From NCBI GenBank assembly GCA_036273515.1, contig DASUHM010000054.1, positions 1-64,000 of the forward strand: a stretch of 64,000 nt of DNA. The letters are read 5' to 3'. Positions 3,237 through 14,732 of the stretch are shown here, piece after piece. This DNA comes from Gaiellales bacterium (lineage in GTDB: Bacteria > Actinomycetota > Thermoleophilia > Gaiellales > JAICJC01). The position numbers were made by a program, and so were the translations under genes. Position 1 is the stretch's first letter, and each line of letters starts with the position of its first letter. The notes under the pieces are model-generated. The model had not been told where the DNA came from, searched no databases, and worked only from the letters and a program-made list of their open reading frames with translations.

Positions 3237-4661
3237 GTGATCGGCGAGAGGGTCCGTTACGAGCAGGAGCTGCACAGGTCGCTGCGCGTGCTGGGGAACG
3301 TCATGATCACGTTGTCGTCGATCACGCCCGCGTCGTCGGTGTTCATCATCGTGCCGCTGATCCTGACGACGGCCGGGACGGGCGCATTCCTGACGCTCGC
3401 GATCGCAGCGGTGGTCGGCGTCTTCATGGCCTTCTGCTGGGCCGAGCTGTGCGCCGCCTACCCGATCGCCGGTGGCGACTACGCCATCGTCTGGCATGCC
3501 TTCAAGGGCTGGGCCAAGCCTTTCGCGGGCCCGGTCAGCGTCGTCCTCTTCGCGCTCTGGATCGACACGATCGTCTTCATCCCCGCCGTGATCGCGCTGG
3601 GCACCGCCCAGTACCTCGGCGTCGTCTGGTCGGTCGACGCCAAGACCGCCGGCGCCGTCGTCATGCTGCTCTCGGCCGGCATGGCCATCCTGCAGATCCG
3701 CCTGAACGCCTGGGTTACCGGCGTGTTCCTGGCAATCGAGCTGACGGCGCTCACGGTCGTCACCGGCCTCGGTCTCGCCAACTTCCACGCCGACCGCGTC
3801 TCCCACCTGTTCTCCAACTGGCAGATCGGAAACGCCCACGGCGGACTTGACCCGGTCGCGTTCGGGACGATCCTGACCGCCACCGCCGTCGGCGTGTTCG
3901 CCTACAACGGCTACGCCGCCCCGGTCAACCTGGCCGAGGAGACGCGCGGCTCGAGCCGGGGCATCGCCCGCGCCATCCTCTGGTCGCTCGCCATCACCGT
4001 CATCGCCGAGCTCGTGCCCACCACGGCGGTGCTCCTCGGCGCGCCGAACCTGGCCGACCTGACAACGAGCGCCGTGCCCATGAACGACTTCCTCCTGGCC
4101 ACCTCGAACTCGACCGTGAACACGCTGGTCTCGCTCGGGATCACGATCGCGATCGTGAACGCCGTGATCGCGATCATCATCCAGTTCGGGCGGGTGCTCT
4201 ACTCCTCCGGGCGCGACCGGGCCTGGCCGGGGCCGGTGAACGGATGGATGGCCCAGGTGTCGGAGCGCTTCCACACGCCGTGGTTCGCAACCGCGCTCGT
4301 CGGCATCCTCGGCGCCGTCCTCTGCCTTACCGTCTCGCTCAACGAGATCATCGTCCTCACGGGAGCGACCCTCGTCCTGAACTACGCCCTCGTGGCCCTC
4401 GGCGCCGTCGTCGGCCGCATGACCGGCGCGACCGATCACAGCCCCTACCGGATGCCGTGGTGGCCGCTCCCGCCGCTGCTCGCCATCGCCTCGCTCGTCT
4501 ACATCACCACGAAGCAGACGCACAAGTCCCTCGAGGTCACCGGCATCACCATGCTGATCGGCCTTGTCTACTGGGCCGTCGTCATCTGGCCACAGAAGGG
4601 CCGGGCCTGGAACTTGAAGGATCCGGTGCTCGACGAGGAGCCCGAAGCGGAGACGCCGTGA
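3237..4661 (+). CDS. APC-superfamily amino acid/amine permease
   Basis: A 474-residue integral membrane transporter with about twelve hydrophobic helices. The first helix carries the unwound-helix signature of the family (SSITPASSVFIIVPLI), and the second contains WAELCAAYPIAGGDY, typical of APC amino acid permeases. The start is GTG at 3237, about 8 bp after AAAGGGG. Its stop overlaps the GTG of the P1 peptidase (GTGA), so the two proteins are probably made together and the substrate may be an amino acid, amine or short amide that the peptidase processes. The operator-like palindromes and divergent TetR gene suggest substrate-induced expression. The exact substrate cannot be read from sequence. 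Confidence 0.9.
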   Translation: MIGERVRYEQELHRSLRVLGNVMITLSSITPASSVFIIVPLILTTAGTGAFLTLAIAAVVGVFMAFCWAELCAAYPIAGGDYAIVWHAFKGWAKPFAGPVSVVLFALWIDTIVFIPAVIALGTAQYLGVVWSVDAKTAGAVVMLLSAGMAILQIRLNAWVTGVFLAIELTALTVVTGLGLANFHADRVSHLFSNWQIGNAHGGLDPVAFGTILTATAVGVFAYNGYAAPVNLAEETRGSSRGIARAILWSLAITVIAELVPTTAVLLGAPNLADLTTSAVPMNDFLLATSNSTVNTLVSLGITIAIVNAVIAIIIQFGRVLYSSGRDRAWPGPVNGWMAQVSERFHTPWFATALVGILGAVLCLTVSLNEIIVLTGATLVLNYALVALGAVVGRMTGATDHSPYRMPWWPLPPLLAIASLVYITTKQTHKSLEVTGITMLIGLVYWAVVIWPQKGRAWNLKDPVLDEEPEAETP

Positions 4662-8182: not shown

Positions 8183-9607
8183 CTACGCCGTGACCGGTCG
8201 TTCAGCCGGCTCGGGCCCTGCAGTTGGCGTGCGGCGGAACGTCGTCATGGCGACCCCGCTCAGCGCGGCGAGGACGGCGAAGCAGACGCCCGCCCAGAGC
8301 GCCGGCCCGAAGCCGGCCGTCACCCCGGAGGAGGTGCCGAGGTGGCCGTGTGCCGAGAAGGCGGCGCTTGAGATCGCGAGCGCGAAGACGGTGCCGAACC
8401 GCTGCGCCATGTAGTTGATCCCTGACGCCTTGCCCAGCTCCTGCGGCTCGACCGCGCTGAGGACGGCGGCCGGCACAGTGGGGAGGGCCATCGAGATGCC
8501 GACGCCGGCGACGAGCAAGCCGACGACGAGCTCGACCCAGCCGTATCCGAGCGAGTTGGTGGCGGCAGCCAGGCCATACCCGAGTGCCTGCAGGGCGAGG
8601 CCGGTCAGCATGATCGGCCGGCGGCCGATCCGGTCGGAGAGGGCCCCGGCGAGCGGCGCGACGATCATCGGGGTGCCGAAGAACGGCAACAGGCGCAGCC
8701 CTGTGCCAAGCGGCGAGTCGCCACGGGCGAGCTGGAACTCCTGCGTGACGAAGAAGGCGGTGGCGAATGTGGCGCCATGGAGGAAGAACATCGTCAGGTT
8801 GCCGACGGCGAACTCACGGCTGGCGAAGAGCCGCAGGGGCACCATTGGGTCGACCGCCCTGTGCTCCCACCACAGGAAGGCCGCGACGAGCACAAAGCCG
8901 GCGGCGAGACTCCCGACGATCTCGGCGCTCGACCAGCCGGCGGCGTTCGCGCGGGTGAGGCCCCAGACGAATGCGAAGGCTCCGGCGGTGACGAGCCCGA
9001 CGCCGATCAGATCGAGCCGCGCGGGCGCGCCGTGGCTCTCGGGCAGCAGCCGCGTGCCGAGAACCGCCGCCGCGAGTCCGATCGGGACGTTGATCCAAAA
9101 GATCCAGTGCCAGTCGATGCCCTCGGTGATCGCGCCGCCGACGATCGGGCCAAGTGCGACGGCAAGGCCGGCGAGACCTCCGTAGACGCCGATGATCATC
9201 CCGCGCTTCTCGGCCGGAAACGCCGTCGTCAGGATGGTCAGGCTGAGCGGTAGGACGGAAGCGGCGCCGAGGCCTTGCACGGTGCGTGCTGCGACGAGCT
9301 CAGCGACGTTCGGCGCGAGCGCGCAGGCCGCCGAGGCGAGTGTGAAGAGCGCGACGCCGCTGATGAAGACCCGGCGGCGGCCGAAGCGGTCGCCGAGAGC
9401 CGCGGCGGTGATGATTCCCGCGGCGAAGGCGATCCCGTACGCGTTGACCGTCCACTGCAGCGAAGACAGCCCGACGTTGAGGTCGGCTTGCATCCGCGGC
9501 AGAGCGGTGATGACGACGAGCGCGTCCAGAACGACCATGAAGTAGGCGGCTGAGGTCAGCCCGACCACCCAGCCAAGGCGGCGCGCCGGTGTTGTCGTGT
9601 CCGTCAT
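8183..9607 (-). CDS. MFS drug exporter, DHA2/EmrB-QacA type
   Basis: A 474-residue membrane protein with about fourteen hydrophobic segments, the number expected for DHA2 proton antiporters. Motif A appears as GDRFGRRRVF after helix 2, and motif C-like GPIVGGAITEGIDWHWIF lies near helix 5, where the W-IF-IN-P pattern is typical of the group. It begins with ATG at 9607 overlapping the stop of the SRPBCC gene (ATGA), so the pair is translated as a unit. Transcription should start from the minus-strand ECF-like promoter at 10182-10208, placing it in the putative ECF42 regulon. Likely role: export of a toxic compound; the substrate is not predictable. Confidence 0.9.
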   Translation of the reverse strand: MTDTTTPARRLGWVVGLTSAAYFMVVLDALVVITALPRMQADLNVGLSSLQWTVNAYGIAFAAGIITAAALGDRFGRRRVFISGVALFTLASAACALAPNVAELVAARTVQGLGAASVLPLSLTILTTAFPAEKRGMIIGVYGGLAGLAVALGPIVGGAITEGIDWHWIFWINVPIGLAAAVLGTRLLPESHGAPARLDLIGVGLVTAGAFAFVWGLTRANAAGWSSAEIVGSLAAGFVLVAAFLWWEHRAVDPMVPLRLFASREFAVGNLTMFFLHGATFATAFFVTQEFQLARGDSPLGTGLRLLPFFGTPMIVAPLAGALSDRIGRRPIMLTGLALQALGYGLAAATNSLGYGWVELVVGLLVAGVGISMALPTVPAAVLSAVEPQELGKASGINYMAQRFGTVFALAISSAAFSAHGHLGTSSGVTAGFGPALWAGVCFAVLAALSGVAMTTFRRTPTAGPEPAERPVTA

Positions 9608-10134
9608 CGCTCCTCCTGAGGCCGGCTCGCCGGCCGGTTCCGGCGGCGTCCGATCACCGCGGCGAGGTTGTCGAGCTCGTTGCGGCGGTGCTCGACCGAG
9701 CCCTGCGTCCAGGGGTCGTCGTGGAAGGGGTCCATCGTCAGGACGACGTCCGTGCGATCGCCGGCGGACGCGATGTCGATGGTCGTCAGGTGGTCGTACG
9801 GCTCATGACCGGGTACGAAGTCGACCAGCGTCAGGTAGGCGAGCCGGGTGGGCCGTGCGACCTCGGTGAACGTCTTGCGCAGTTCGACCGCAATCGGCGC
9901 GCCGATGCTCTGCATGAACGCGACCTGCTCCGCCGCGGTCGCGGTCATCGTGTAGCGCAGGTGACCGCCGGGTCGCAGGTCGAGTTCGCGCACCCGGGTT
10001 TCGAAGCCCTCCGGTGCGAACCACTTCTCGAGGCCTTCGGTGGTGGTCCAGAGCTCCCAGATCAGCTCGGCCGGCGCGTCGTACGTGCGCTCGAGCCGTG
10101 CGGCGTCGTGTCGTGGCGTCGGATTGGTCGTCAT
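9604..10134 (-). CDS. SRPBCC / AHSA1-domain protein
   Basis: A 176-residue soluble protein with the START-like AHSA1 fold. Landmarks are LERTYDAPAELIWELWTTTE near the N-terminus, then LEKWFAPEGFETRVRELDLRPGG with a beta-rich middle, and a C-terminal helix around VEHRRNELDNLAAVIG. The start ATG 10134 is preceded by GGAGG at good spacing; a longer frame upstream is excluded because it would run through the promoter. Members bind hydrophobic small molecules and often occur beside YCII/DGPF proteins and ECF sigma factors, as here. It is coupled to the MFS exporter. Ligand and activity are unknown. Confidence 0.85.
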   Translation of the reverse strand: MTTNPTPRHDAARLERTYDAPAELIWELWTTTEGLEKWFAPEGFETRVRELDLRPGGHLRYTMTATAAEQVAFMQSIGAPIAVELRKTFTEVARPTRLAYLTLVDFVPGHEPYDHLTTIDIASAGDRTDVVLTMDPFHDDPWTQGSVEHRRNELDNLAAVIGRRRNRPASRPQEER

Positions 10135-10181
10135 CGATCCTCCATCGGGTGCGACCGGCTGTCCGCCGGGTTCGCTTCGAC

Positions 10182-10208
10182 GACGAACGGCGAGAGGCTG
10201 GACGGACA
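10182..10208 (-). promoter_or_regulatory. ECF-type promoter, minus strand
   Basis: Read on the minus strand this is TGTCCG, a 17-bp spacer and CGTC, about 48 bp upstream of the SRPBCC start. The same arrangement with a similar spacer occurs in the opposite direction at 10231-10257. As I recall it, the published ECF42 promoter has TGTCGA at -35 and CG[A/T]C at -10, which this matches well. Function is inferred from the match, position and duplication. Confidence 0.65.
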
Positions 10209-10230
10209 CGCCTCACAAGAATTCGGTGGG

Positions 10231-10257
10231 TGTCCGTCACTCGAGCCGCCGTTCGTC
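10231..10257 (+). promoter_or_regulatory. ECF-type promoter, plus strand
   Basis: TGTCCG (10231-10236), a 17-bp spacer ending GCCGTT, then CGTC (10254-10257), about 40 bp before the YCII start. It mirrors the minus-strand motif, including the spacer end, so the sigma factor encoded downstream may drive both its own operon and the divergent exporter operon. This is inference from sequence symmetry and the recalled ECF42 consensus. Confidence 0.65.
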
Positions 10258-10296
10258 TAGAAGGTGACACCACCCGCCCACGCAGGAGGAGACACC

Positions 10297-10647
10297 GTGC
10301 GGTACGCACTCGTGATCTACAACAACGACGCGGTTCGCGAACGGACATCCGAGCAGCAGCGCCAGGTCAACGCAGCGATCGCCGAGATTCTGGAGCGACC
10401 GGCCGTCACCGGCTGGATCCAGCTCCAAGACCTGGAATCGACAACGACAGTCCGACACGACCACGGCAAGACGCTGCTCACGGACGGACCGTTCGTCGAC
10501 AGCAAGGACTTCCTCGGCGGCTTCATCGTCCTCGAGGCCGAGAACCTCGACGAAGCCCTGGCGATCGCCGGCGAACTGCAGGAGGTACGAGGCGCGGGCG
10601 CGATCGAGGTGCGGCCGATCCTCGGCGAGGGTCCGGAACGTGCTTGA
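10297..10647 (+). CDS. YCII/DGPF-domain protein
   Basis: A 116-residue protein of the YCII-related family. The hallmark DGPF motif is present (LLTDGPFVDSKDFLGGFIVL), after an N-terminal strand VRYALVIYNN and before a helix NLDEALAIAGEL and a last strand IEVRPI. The GTG at 10297 is chosen because AGGAGGA lies 7 bp upstream and the family usually starts at this strand; the longer ATG-less extension to 10264 reads through the ribosome binding site. It overlaps the sigma factor gene by 8 bp. DGPF proteins are characteristic partners of ECF42 sigma factors; their biochemical role remains unknown. Confidence 0.9.
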   Translation: MRYALVIYNNDAVRERTSEQQRQVNAAIAEILERPAVTGWIQLQDLESTTTVRHDHGKTLLTDGPFVDSKDFLGGFIVLEAENLDEALAIAGELQEVRGAGAIEVRPILGEGPERA

Positions 10648-11815
10648 GGAGGTCTTCCGCGACGGCTGGGGTCGCGTGGTTGCCTCCCTGGTCGGCTTCC
10701 TGGGGGACATCGAGCTGGCCGAGGACGCCACCCAGGAGGCCTTCGCCATCGCCGCCGAGCGTTGGCCGCGCACGGGTACGCCGGCCAACCCGACCGGCTG
10801 GCTGATCGCGACGGCGCGCAACCGCGCAATCGACCGCATCCGGCGCGAGCGGACGCTGGCGCGCAAGACCGAGCAGCTCGAGCGGCAGCTGCGAGACCGA
10901 TCGGAGACGACGGTGGATGAGACGACGACGTTTCCGGACGAGCGGCTGGAGCTCGTGTTCACCTGCTGCCATCCGGCGCTCGCGCTCGACGCGCAGGTCG
11001 GCCTGACGCTGCGGACCCTCGGCGGCCTTTCGACCGAGGAGATCGCGCGCGCCTTCCTCATCCCCTTCGAGACGATGAGCAAGCGCCTAACCCGGGCGAA
11101 GCGCAAGATCCGCGACGCTGGCATCCCGTTCGCCGTGCCGTCCGACCATCTCCTGCCCGAACGGCTCGATGCCGTACTCGCCGTCGTCTACCTGATCTTC
11201 AACGAGGGCTGGGGCGACGGCCGCGTTGACCTGGCAGCTGAAGCCATCCGCCTCGGCCGTGGGCTCGCCGAGCTGATGCCGGACGAGCCTGAGGCGCACG
11301 CGCTCTTGGCGCTGATGCTCGTGAACCACTCTCGCGGCGATGCACGGTTTCGCAGCGGCGAGCTCGTCCTGCTTGACGACCAGGACAGGTCGCTCTGGAA
11401 TCGAGACCGGCTCGAGGAAGGCCGCGCGGCGCTCGCCCGGGCGCTCGCACTGCGCGGGAGCGGCTCGTACGTCGTTCAGGCCGCGATCGCCGACCTGCAC
11501 ACTCGGGAGCCGCGCGACTGGGCGGAGATCGACCTCCTCTACCGGCGCCTCGAGGGGATCACGGGCTCACCGATCGTGACGTTGAATCGTGCCGTCGCCG
11601 TCGCCGAGCTCGAAGGGCCCGAGGCAGCCCTGACGCTGCTCGACACTCTCGACCTCGACGAGTACCGCTACTTCCACTCGACGCGCGCCGACCTTCTGCG
11701 TCGCGTCGGCCGAGACGACGAGGCCCGCGCCGCATACTCCCGCGCCCTCGACCTGTTCCGGCCGGGGCCGGAACAGCGGTTCCTCCATCGCCGCTTCGCC
11801 GACATTGCCGAGTGA
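10640..11815 (+). CDS. ECF42-type RNA polymerase sigma factor with C-terminal TPR-like domain
   Basis: A 391-residue sigma factor. Region 2 is at about 1-75 (EDATQEAFAIAAERWP, then TGWLIATARNRAIDRIRRE) and region 4 at about 115-160 (LTLRTLGGLSTEEIARAFLI, ETMSKRLTRAKRKIRDAG). The following ~220 residues form helical repeats with FNEGWGDGRVDLAAEAIRLG and AVAVAELEGPEAALTLLD, the TPR-like tail typical of ECF42. This group has no classical anti-sigma factor; the tail is thought to control activity. It starts with GTG 10640 inside the YCII gene. The neighbouring YCII, SRPBCC and exporter genes and the paired promoters suggest a small autoregulated stress regulon. Confidence 0.92.
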   Translation: MLEEVFRDGWGRVVASLVGFLGDIELAEDATQEAFAIAAERWPRTGTPANPTGWLIATARNRAIDRIRRERTLARKTEQLERQLRDRSETTVDETTTFPDERLELVFTCCHPALALDAQVGLTLRTLGGLSTEEIARAFLIPFETMSKRLTRAKRKIRDAGIPFAVPSDHLLPERLDAVLAVVYLIFNEGWGDGRVDLAAEAIRLGRGLAELMPDEPEAHALLALMLVNHSRGDARFRSGELVLLDDQDRSLWNRDRLEEGRAALARALALRGSGSYVVQAAIADLHTREPRDWAEIDLLYRRLEGITGSPIVTLNRAVAVAELEGPEAALTLLDTLDLDEYRYFHSTRADLLRRVGRDDEARAAYSRALDLFRPGPEQRFLHRRFADIAE

Positions 11816-11976: not shown

Positions 11977-13050
11977 ATGAACATACTCCCAGTCACGCTC
12001 CTTGCGGTCGTGGTCGCAGGCTGCTCCGGGACCGCGTCGAGCTCTCCGGTCATGTCCGCGAGCAGCACGCCGTCGGCGCCGAGAACGACCGCTCCTGCCG
12101 GAGCCACGGGCTCGGCCACAGCGACGGGGCATACAGCAGCGCTTGACACGCCGATCGCCGTTGTCACCGCCGAGACCGAGCACGCCGTGCTCGAGGTGTC
12201 GCCGGCCACCGGCCGTGTGCTGCGCCGCGTCCCGATCACCGGCGATCCCACGACCCTCGCCGCCGCACCCACCGGCCCGGTCGTCGTCTGCAGCCCCGCC
12301 GCCGGGACGGTGACGCTGCTTTCCTGGCCCGGGCTGCGGCCGGTGGCGGTCCTGCACCGCTTCCAGACACCCGAGATCGCCGCCATCACGCCCGACCGTG
12401 AGTGGGCGCTCGTCAGCGACGCCGCCGGCACGGTGTCGACGATCCAGCTCTCGAGCCATCGCATCGTCGACCGCGTCCGGGTCGGACGCGGGGCACACCA
12501 CATGGCCATCAGCCCCGATCAGCGGGTTGCGTGGGTCGCGCTCGGGGAGACGGCACGCACCATCGTTCGCCTCGACACCGCCGACCCGACCCACCTGCGC
12601 GTCGTGGGGCGCCTCCATCCCCCGACGGCCTCGCACGACCTCGCCTTCTCTCCGGGCGGCAGAACCGTCTGGGTCACGTCGTCCGACGCCTCGTACGTGA
12701 CCGTCTACACCGCAGCGACCGGGCGGCCTGTCACAACCGTCCCGGCCGGCACCGCGCCGCAACACATCGCCTTCGGCCGGACCACGCCGGCACGCGCCTA
12801 CATCTCCAGCGGCTATGGCCGCAGCCTCGAGATGGTCGACGTCGCCTCCGGCCGGATCCTGCACCGCGCGGCGCTGCCCTACGGATCCTTCAACCTCTCC
12901 ACGCTGGGATCCGTCGTCGCAACCACCTCGCTCCTCGACGGCAGAGTGACCATCATCAATACGGGCAACCTTCGGCGGCGGCTGGCTGCCACCGTCGCCC
13001 CGGAAGCCCGCGAGATCGTCCTCCTCCGGAAGACCCGGAGGCCCGCATGA
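11977..13050 (+). CDS. Secreted lipoprotein with YncE-like beta-propeller
   Basis: A 357-residue lipoprotein. MNILPVTLLAVVVAGCSG is a clear lipobox signal peptide with the acylated Cys at residue 16, followed by a Ser/Thr/Ala linker to about residue 55. The rest is repeated beta-blade sequence such as GAHHMAISPDQRVAWVA, HDLAFSPGGRTVWVTSSDAS and PQHIAFGR, as in YncE or surface-layer propellers. I start at ATG 11977 because the signal peptide begins there, although the open frame reaches back to the sigma factor. It lies 161 bp downstream of the sigma gene and could share its transcript. The ligand is unknown. Confidence 0.82.
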   Translation: MNILPVTLLAVVVAGCSGTASSSPVMSASSTPSAPRTTAPAGATGSATATGHTAALDTPIAVVTAETEHAVLEVSPATGRVLRRVPITGDPTTLAAAPTGPVVVCSPAAGTVTLLSWPGLRPVAVLHRFQTPEIAAITPDREWALVSDAAGTVSTIQLSSHRIVDRVRVGRGAHHMAISPDQRVAWVALGETARTIVRLDTADPTHLRVVGRLHPPTASHDLAFSPGGRTVWVTSSDASYVTVYTAATGRPVTTVPAGTAPQHIAFGRTTPARAYISSGYGRSLEMVDVASGRILHRAALPYGSFNLSTLGSVVATTSLLDGRVTIINTGNLRRRLAATVAPEAREIVLLRKTRRPA

Positions 13051-13994: not shown

Positions 13995-14732
13995 TTAGTC
14001 CGGGTACTCGTCCTTGCGATAGGTGAGGAACGGGCTGGTCTCGTCCTTCGGCGTGCGGTCGAGCAGGAAGCTCGTGAACGGCGCCACGAAGGGGTCGGGG
14101 GCCGAGACGGTGTAGGTGTGGTAGACGACGCCGTCCTCGAGCGCGAAGGCGATGTAGCTCGGGTTCTCGCGGAGCCCGTCCTTGAGGTCGGCGTCCACCT
14201 GCGTCGACCAGAACTCGAGCCAGTCCGGCGGCTCGTCGATCATCTGCTGCACCTCGGGGATCTCGCCGGCCTGCTCCTCGCTGAGCGCCAGGCCGAAGTC
14301 GAACGGGAAGTCGCTCCCGTACGTCGAGATCCAGGGGAACTGCCAGCCCATCCGCCGCTTGTACGCGGCGAGCGCGTCGATCGGCGCCCGCGAGAAGCAC
14401 ACGAACGTCACATCGCGGTGGTTGAGATGGATCAGCGTCCCGTCGAAGTTGTCGGCGAGGCCGGTGCAGCCGGGACACGCGCCGGCCTTGTAGTCGGGCC
14501 CGTACATGATGTTGTAGGCGAGCAGCTGCGAGCGGCCGTCGAACAGCTCGGCGAGCGCCTTCTTCCCTGACTCCGTGTCGAACTCGTACTCCTTCTCGAC
14601 GGGCACCCAAGGGAGCTCGCGGCGCCGGCGCTTGATCTCCTCGTTTCGCTCCGCCTGCTCGCGTTCGAGATTCGCCAGGTCGCTGCGCGCGGCCTGCCAC
14701 TCCTCACGGGTGCCGATGGTGTGCTCGGGCAT
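13995..14732 (-). CDS. DUF899 thioredoxin-like protein
   Basis: A 245-residue soluble protein of the DUF899 (COG4312) family. It shows the family start (TREEWQAARSDLANLERE), the coiled helix into ELPWVPVEKEYEF, LFDGRSQLLAYNIMYGPDY and the cysteine site GACPGCTGLAD, which resembles a thioredoxin CxxC reading CPGC, followed by FVCFSRAPIDALAAYKRRMGW. The C-terminal YHTYTVSAPDPF is also conserved. The fold suggests a redox or peroxidase-like role, but no activity is established for the family. It is transcribed toward the reductase and ends at a possible shared terminator. Confidence 0.88.
   Translation of the reverse strand: MPEHTIGTREEWQAARSDLANLEREQAERNEEIKRRRRELPWVPVEKEYEFDTESGKKALAELFDGRSQLLAYNIMYGPDYKAGACPGCTGLADNFDGTLIHLNHRDVTFVCFSRAPIDALAAYKRRMGWQFPWISTYGSDFPFDFGLALSEEQAGEIPEVQQMIDEPPDWLEFWSTQVDADLKDGLRENPSYIAFALEDGVVYHTYTVSAPDPFVAPFTSFLLDRTPKDETSPFLTYRKDEYPD

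Follow-up and report, generated by a model that had tools for sequence, protein, structure and literature searches.

Mirror-image predicted ECF42 promoters between a sigma factor operon and an exporter operon, and covariation of their -35 element with the sigma4 recognition helix

The window (the whole 64,000-nucleotide stretch of DNA analysed here, from a soil actinobacterium) contains two divergent operons separated by an intergenic region of 162 bp, which extends from the start of an SRPBCC-domain gene (10134, minus strand) to that of a YCII-domain gene (10297, plus strand). The features of this locus are as follows.

8183..9607, minus strand: DHA2/EmrB-family MFS efflux permease, 474 aa (TIGR00711, 259.4 bits, cut-off 230.2)
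9604..10134, minus strand: SRPBCC/AHSA1-domain protein, 176 aa (PF08327, 50.4 bits, cut-off 22.1)
10182..10208, minus strand: predicted ECF42 promoter of the SRPBCC-MFS operon (TGTCCG 10208-10203, 17-nt spacer, CGTC 10185-10182)
10209..10230, no strand: gap of 22 bp between the back-to-back -35 elements (10, 22, 25 and 31 bp in relatives)
10231..10257, plus strand: predicted ECF42 promoter of the YCII-sigma operon (TGTCCG 10231-10236, 17-nt spacer, CGTC 10254-10257)
10297..10647, plus strand: YCII-domain (DGPF-type) protein, 116 aa (PF03795, 57.2 bits, cut-off 24)
10640..11815, plus strand: ECF42-type sigma factor, 391 aa, with sigma2, sigma4, DUF6596 and a TPR-like C-terminal extension
11066..11119, plus strand: sigma4 recognition helix, codons 143-160, covarying with -35 bases 5 and 6
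11078-11080, 11081-11083 and 11090-11092, plus strand: codons of Ser147, Lys148 and Thr151, which covary with -35 bases 5 and 6

The YCII gene has a GTG start with AGGAGG, and its stop overlaps the start of the sigma gene by 8 nt; the association of ECF42 factors with DGPF/YCII proteins, which an earlier note on this DNA had mentioned, is borne out by a PF03795 gene directly upstream. On the other strand, the SRPBCC gene is the first in its operon and the start of the MFS gene overlaps its stop (ATGA). Good Shine-Dalgarno sequences precede both the SRPBCC and the YCII starts. Downstream of the sigma gene, positions 11978-13050 look like a gene for a secreted beta-propeller lipoprotein, with a likely start at MNILPVTLLAVVVAGCSG, and this gene probably lies outside the YCII-sigma operon. 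Genes for DUF899 or DUF899-like proteins turn up repeatedly close to ECF42 operons or to candidate targets, namely in the window (13995-14732), at L079:3013-3771 and at L234:1970-2716; the window copy has no site directly upstream.

Judged by its architecture and its YCII neighbour, the sigma factor is of the ECF42 type, the group in which sigma2 and sigma4 are followed by a TPR extension of about 200 aa and a YCII/DGPF gene is adjacent (PMC8999054, PMC6180224). The sigma2 domain matches PF04542 with 42.2 bits (cut-off 24) and the sigma4 domain PF08281 with 25.9 bits (cut-off 25.7), without sigma3, and the C-terminal extension matches DUF6596 with 103 bits, along with weak TPR profiles that fall below their cut-offs. 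In the AlphaFold model (mean pLDDT 85.8), two sigma domains are followed by an extension made up largely of helices, and a comparison of the model with the PDB placed TPR proteins at the top (best E 7.8e-4). No anti-sigma gene adjoins the sigma gene, the neighbours being the YCII, SRPBCC, MFS and beta-propeller genes. In a tree computed with the named ECF42 reference sequences left out, the sigma factor falls in a clade of five (node value 99) nested in a 53-row set (node value 100) that includes members with TGTCGA-type promoters.

The 76-bp element at 10182-10257 consists of two divergent predicted promoters, and the sites and the layout of the genes around them are directly visible in the DNA. 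The minus-strand site (10182-10208) reads TGTCCGTCCAGCCTCTCGCCGTTCGTC and the plus-strand site (10231-10257) reads TGTCCGTCACTCGAGCCGCCGTTCGTC. The earlier note had described TGTCCG-N17-CGTC on both strands; this is exact, and the agreement extends further, to TGTCCGTC-N9-GCCGTTCGTC over 27 nt. Since the -35 ends are innermost, 22 bp apart, the promoters point in opposite, outward directions. From the -10 end to the start codon, the distance is 47 nt for SRPBCC (ATG) and 39 nt for YCII (GTG), close to the earlier estimates of about 48 and 40 bp. Scanning 9900-10400 for sigma-70 promoters gave no match.

Chance similarity within GC-rich intergenic DNA draws what plausibility it has from the loose motif TGTCCG-N15-18-CGTC, which is common: the window holds 5 copies against 2.5 expected, which is unremarkable, and the genome about 100, which is uninformative. 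However, when up to 3 mismatches were allowed in the extended motif, only the two sites were found in the window (0.24 expected), and the genome-wide search that the earlier note had proposed as a check returned, for the extended form, just these two exact copies in 4.07 Mb (96.6% complete). A position matrix trained on 115 ECF42 loci, from which the window and its clade were excluded, ranked the pair first and second among all window 27-mers on both strands (16.8 and 16.6 bits), with the third at 5.4 bits, 11 bits below the pair. A mirrored pair of the same form was present in 2 of 129 genomes of the order, both times at this sigma operon, and, when 396 genomes were drawn evenly from the phylum, in the window genome only. 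Given the extended motif, the matrix ranking and conservation across five genomes, we attach a negligible probability to chance.

For comparison, 74 loci of the same order and 80 named GTDB loci were collected, which after deduplication gave about 139 distinct sigma genes. Nearly all of these loci carry TGTC-N19-CGWC at the same spacing, mostly some 60 bp upstream of the first YCII gene, with TGTCGA as the commonest -35 element, and nearly all relatives outside the window clade have one site in a single orientation. Sites were counted when they scored at least 14.5 and started with TGTC, which left 124 loci with reliable sites; a few early picks that fell in coding sequence, of the form TGTAGT... 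and, in L102, a match of 29 nt, proved false and were discarded. The window promoters fit the canonical ECF42 promoter in the TGTC core, the 17-nt spacing and the -10 element CGWC, and bases 5 and 6 of the -35 element are CG at both window sites, not the canonical GA, a departure from the promoter consensus that has no bearing on whether the sigma protein belongs to ECF42. Thus, of the ECF42 recognition sequence TGTCGA ... CG[A/T]C that the earlier note had given, the CGTC part and the spacing hold, but the -35 is replaced here by the clade-specific TGTCCG.

The mirrored pair is present in all five members of the clade with an SKR/Thr151 recognition helix (the window, L079, L153, L154 and L159, the last being the culturable Microbispora rosea ATCC 12950) and in none of the other relatives, the clade of five being a small sample. 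In four of the five genomes, the pair constitutes the only exact motif matches. The inverted arms are nearly perfect, GACGGACA-N22-TGTCCGTC, as might be expected of an operator for a dimeric transcription factor instead of two promoters. However, the gap between the arms varies across the clade (22, 10, 22, 25 and 31 bp), elsewhere nearly every relative has one site in one orientation, the unlinked SRPBCC gene in the L153 genome has a single site, and the arms carry -35 and -10 parts at promoter spacing. We rejected the palindromic operator on the variable spacing of the arms, and consider it very unlikely.

It is somewhat less improbable, albeit still unlikely, that only one site works as a promoter and that the other copy is weak or has decayed. 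In L153, the plus-strand site has one mismatch and is degenerate near the -10, and overexpression of the Sinorhizobium meliloti ECF42 factor RpoE10 did not raise its own YCII gene (PMC6180224), so that autoregulation need not follow from a site before YCII. Nevertheless, the window sites have equal scores (16.8 and 16.6 bits) and 5/5 clade members retain both orientations, which argues for two working promoters.

The genes behind the divergent promoter differ among the five members: SRPBCC-MFS in the window, MFS only in L153 (70% identical), SRPBCC in L159 (66% identical), YCII-SRPBCC in L154 and SDR-DUF899 in L079. The L153 genome (G758) carries a further exact site, TGTCCGTCTGGCGCGGGTTCGTTCGTC, on another contig, 49 nt before the ATG of an SRPBCC gene whose product is 59% identical to the window SRPBCC. 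The gene next to MFS in the window thus keeps the promoter at a separate location in this relative, and no other single observation speaks as strongly for SRPBCC and MFS as real targets. The exporter module proposed in the earlier note describes the window copy only, as the divergent slot varies within the clade. In this sense, the window locus is a compact divergent cassette in which the promoters stay while the target genes change. Separately, in Microbispora rosea, TGTCCATC...CCCGTTCGTC (L267:1501-1527) occurs 43 nt before a mycothiol maleylpyruvate isomerase-like (MDMPI_N) gene, which is a possible further target.

On the evidence of covariation, TGTCCG is a clade-wide variant matched to residues 147, 148 and 151 of the recognition helix. 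When every position of the sigma protein was scanned for mutual information with the -35 element, residue 148 came top for base 5, and residues 147, 148, 151 and 144 for base 6. Across the 124 loci, Lys or Arg at position 148 occurred with C at base 5 in 30 of 30 cases and a non-basic residue with a base other than C in 94 of 94, so that residue 148, alone among the sigma columns, predicts this base without exception. In the model, columns 144, 147, 148 and 151 are spaced as i, i+3, i+4 and i+7 within the N-terminal half of the recognition helix. The helix types pair with the -35 elements as follows: AQR/Val151 with TGTCGA, AKR/Val151 with TGTCCT or TGTCCA, KRR with TGTCCC, SKR/Thr151 (the window clade) with TGTCCG, RQR/T151 with TGTCGC and EQR/T151 with TGTCGG. 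A single SKR/Val151 protein has TGTCCT, which points to residue 151 as a determinant of base 6. By alignment and reading of the helix, residues 147, 148 and 151 correspond to R171, S172 and F175 of Escherichia coli sigma-E, which contact -35 DNA, R171 binding the G opposite C-31 (PMC6713349); this contact fits the occurrence of Lys or Arg at position 147 with C at base 6.

The rule for base 5 was also tested in 17 plasmid loci, several of them from Pseudomonadota and Cyanobacteriota, in which sites were scored blind to bases 5 and 6: sites were found in 14 of the 17 loci and agreed with the rule in all 14, with no usable site in L272, L280 and L281. Examples are SKV-TGTCCA in Caballeronia, AKV-TGTCCT in Nonomuraea, RQT-TGTCGC in Labrenzia and EQT-TGTCGG in Sinorhizobium, and a second Sinorhizobium site differs very little from the SMc01149 promoter of S. 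meliloti, which has been mapped and depends on RpoE10 (PMC6180224). The rule for base 6 is looser, given that GQS and AAR/Thr151 proteins have TGTCGA. The change from Gln to Lys or Arg at position 148 has about two origins in the 124-locus tree, with perhaps one more in Caballeronia; because it arose so few times, phylogeny-corrected statistics are weak, and a formal independent-contrast test on this tree, with too few transitions, was not significant. The code that these data suggest has two parts. At base 5, a non-basic residue 148 (Gln or other) would specify mostly G, and Lys or Arg148 would specify C; at base 6, Ala147 with Val151 would specify A or T, Thr151 with Ser, Gly or Glu147 would specify G, and Lys or Arg147 would specify C. 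Such a code linking helix and -35 specificity has apparently not been described before.

Several of the plasmids carry more than one site. On cyanobacterial plasmids, two tandem TGTCGA...CGAC sites lie between the sigma gene and a divergent YCII gene (L268:1294-1403 and L270:1090-1198). A Pseudomonas aeruginosa plasmid with an ECF42 factor has TGTCGA sites before YciI and NTF2-like genes (L269:2707-2733 and 3624-3650), and similar sigma genes are found on Acinetobacter plasmids. The Labrenzia plasmid, which encodes an Arg147-type factor, has TGTCGC at L278:1032-1058 and 2708-2734, the second site 37 nt before an SRPBCC-DoxX pair, that is, another SRPBCC target.

The window genome encodes a second ECF42 factor (C2:85954-87153, in locus L098, G000:C2:85454-92153), 51% identical to the first, with an AQR helix and a TGTCGA-type site, TGTCGATTTCGGGGGCCGCCGTTCGTC, upstream. 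A one-mismatch TGTCGA-type site also lies 50 nt before a cupin gene (L234:1501-1527 and L234:1578, respectively), which may be a second target of this paralogue. Another sigma factor, such as the TGTCGA-type paralogue, could in principle drive one or both window promoters, given that the -10 and the spacer are common to both types and the proteins are half identical. However, the -35 elements differ at precisely the two bases that track the helix, and the AQR paralogue has its own TGTCGA site, so we regard recognition by another factor as quite unlikely.

Because the promoter is conserved upstream of the YCII-sigma operon and its -35 element covaries with sigma4, direct recognition of both sites by the adjacent sigma factor is the best reading. 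The claim of the earlier note that the sigma factor at 10640 controls both operons draws support from the ECF42 architecture, the promoter conserved in nearly all of about 139 relatives and the covariation, all of it evidence from sequence: both mirror-image promoters are very probably switched on by this factor, and the regulon is probably autoregulated. Under the proposed mechanism, the sigma factor would be activated, probably via the TPR extension and possibly via the YCII protein, both of which are trigger candidates in the literature (PMC8999054). At both sites, sigma4 would then read the -35 TGTCCG and sigma2 the -10 CGTC, and the holoenzyme would start transcription. The sigma factor would transcribe its own operon, amplifying its own synthesis by positive feedback, and the divergent SRPBCC-MFS operon, the products of which may serve the detoxification of some hydrophobic compound. 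The -35 would depart from TGTCGA because Ser147, Lys148 and Thr151 replace Ala-Gln-Val in the clade helix, and this re-specification would limit the regulon to two promoters, insulated from that of the TGTCGA-type paralogue. We consider it highly probable that the adjacent sigma factor reads both promoters, as a local, presumably autoregulated ECF42 regulon that drives the SRPBCC-exporter operon and would be insulated by its re-specified -35.

The closest known systems are the ECF42 factors of Streptomyces venezuelae (Sven_0747 and paralogues), Pseudomonas putida (ECF-10) and S. meliloti (RpoE10), which share the TPR extension of about 200 aa, the YCII/DGPF neighbour, the -10 CGTC at 17-nt spacing and a small regulon extending to neighbouring genes (PMC8999054, PMC6180224). 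Unlike these, the window combines a TGTCCG -35 element with a Ser-Lys-Arg/Thr151 helix and has two divergent, back-to-back sites, with SRPBCC and MFS genes as the target. RpoE10 activates operons (SMc01149-SMc01148 and SMb20475-SMb20474) from TGTCGG-N17-CGTC promoters that have been mapped and of which one precedes a hydrophobic-ligand-domain gene (PMC6180224), but its -35 has G at base 5, its regulon has no exporter and, as noted above, its own YCII gene is not induced on overexpression. The EcfG-NepR-PhyR locus of alphaproteobacteria likewise has divergent units beside an ECF gene, both with regulon promoters of that factor (PMC8103513); it belongs to another ECF group and involves an anti-sigma factor and two-component control; its layout is similar, but the system is unrelated.

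Taken together, these results suggest a simple model in which a two-part code in the sigma4 helix diversified the ECF42 factors into -35 specificity classes, enabling insulated regulons of paralogues and the pick-up of targets by the divergent cassette; we consider this model likely, although with less confidence than the reading of the locus itself. Changes of specificity without crosstalk are usually studied by mutagenesis, whereas the ECF42 factors offer a ready natural series, with promoters that are easy to locate because each adjoins its sigma gene. In this series, specificity swaps are directly testable, and the code may allow regulons to be predicted in a widespread family with few known signals, as well as provide candidate orthogonal sigma-promoter pairs.
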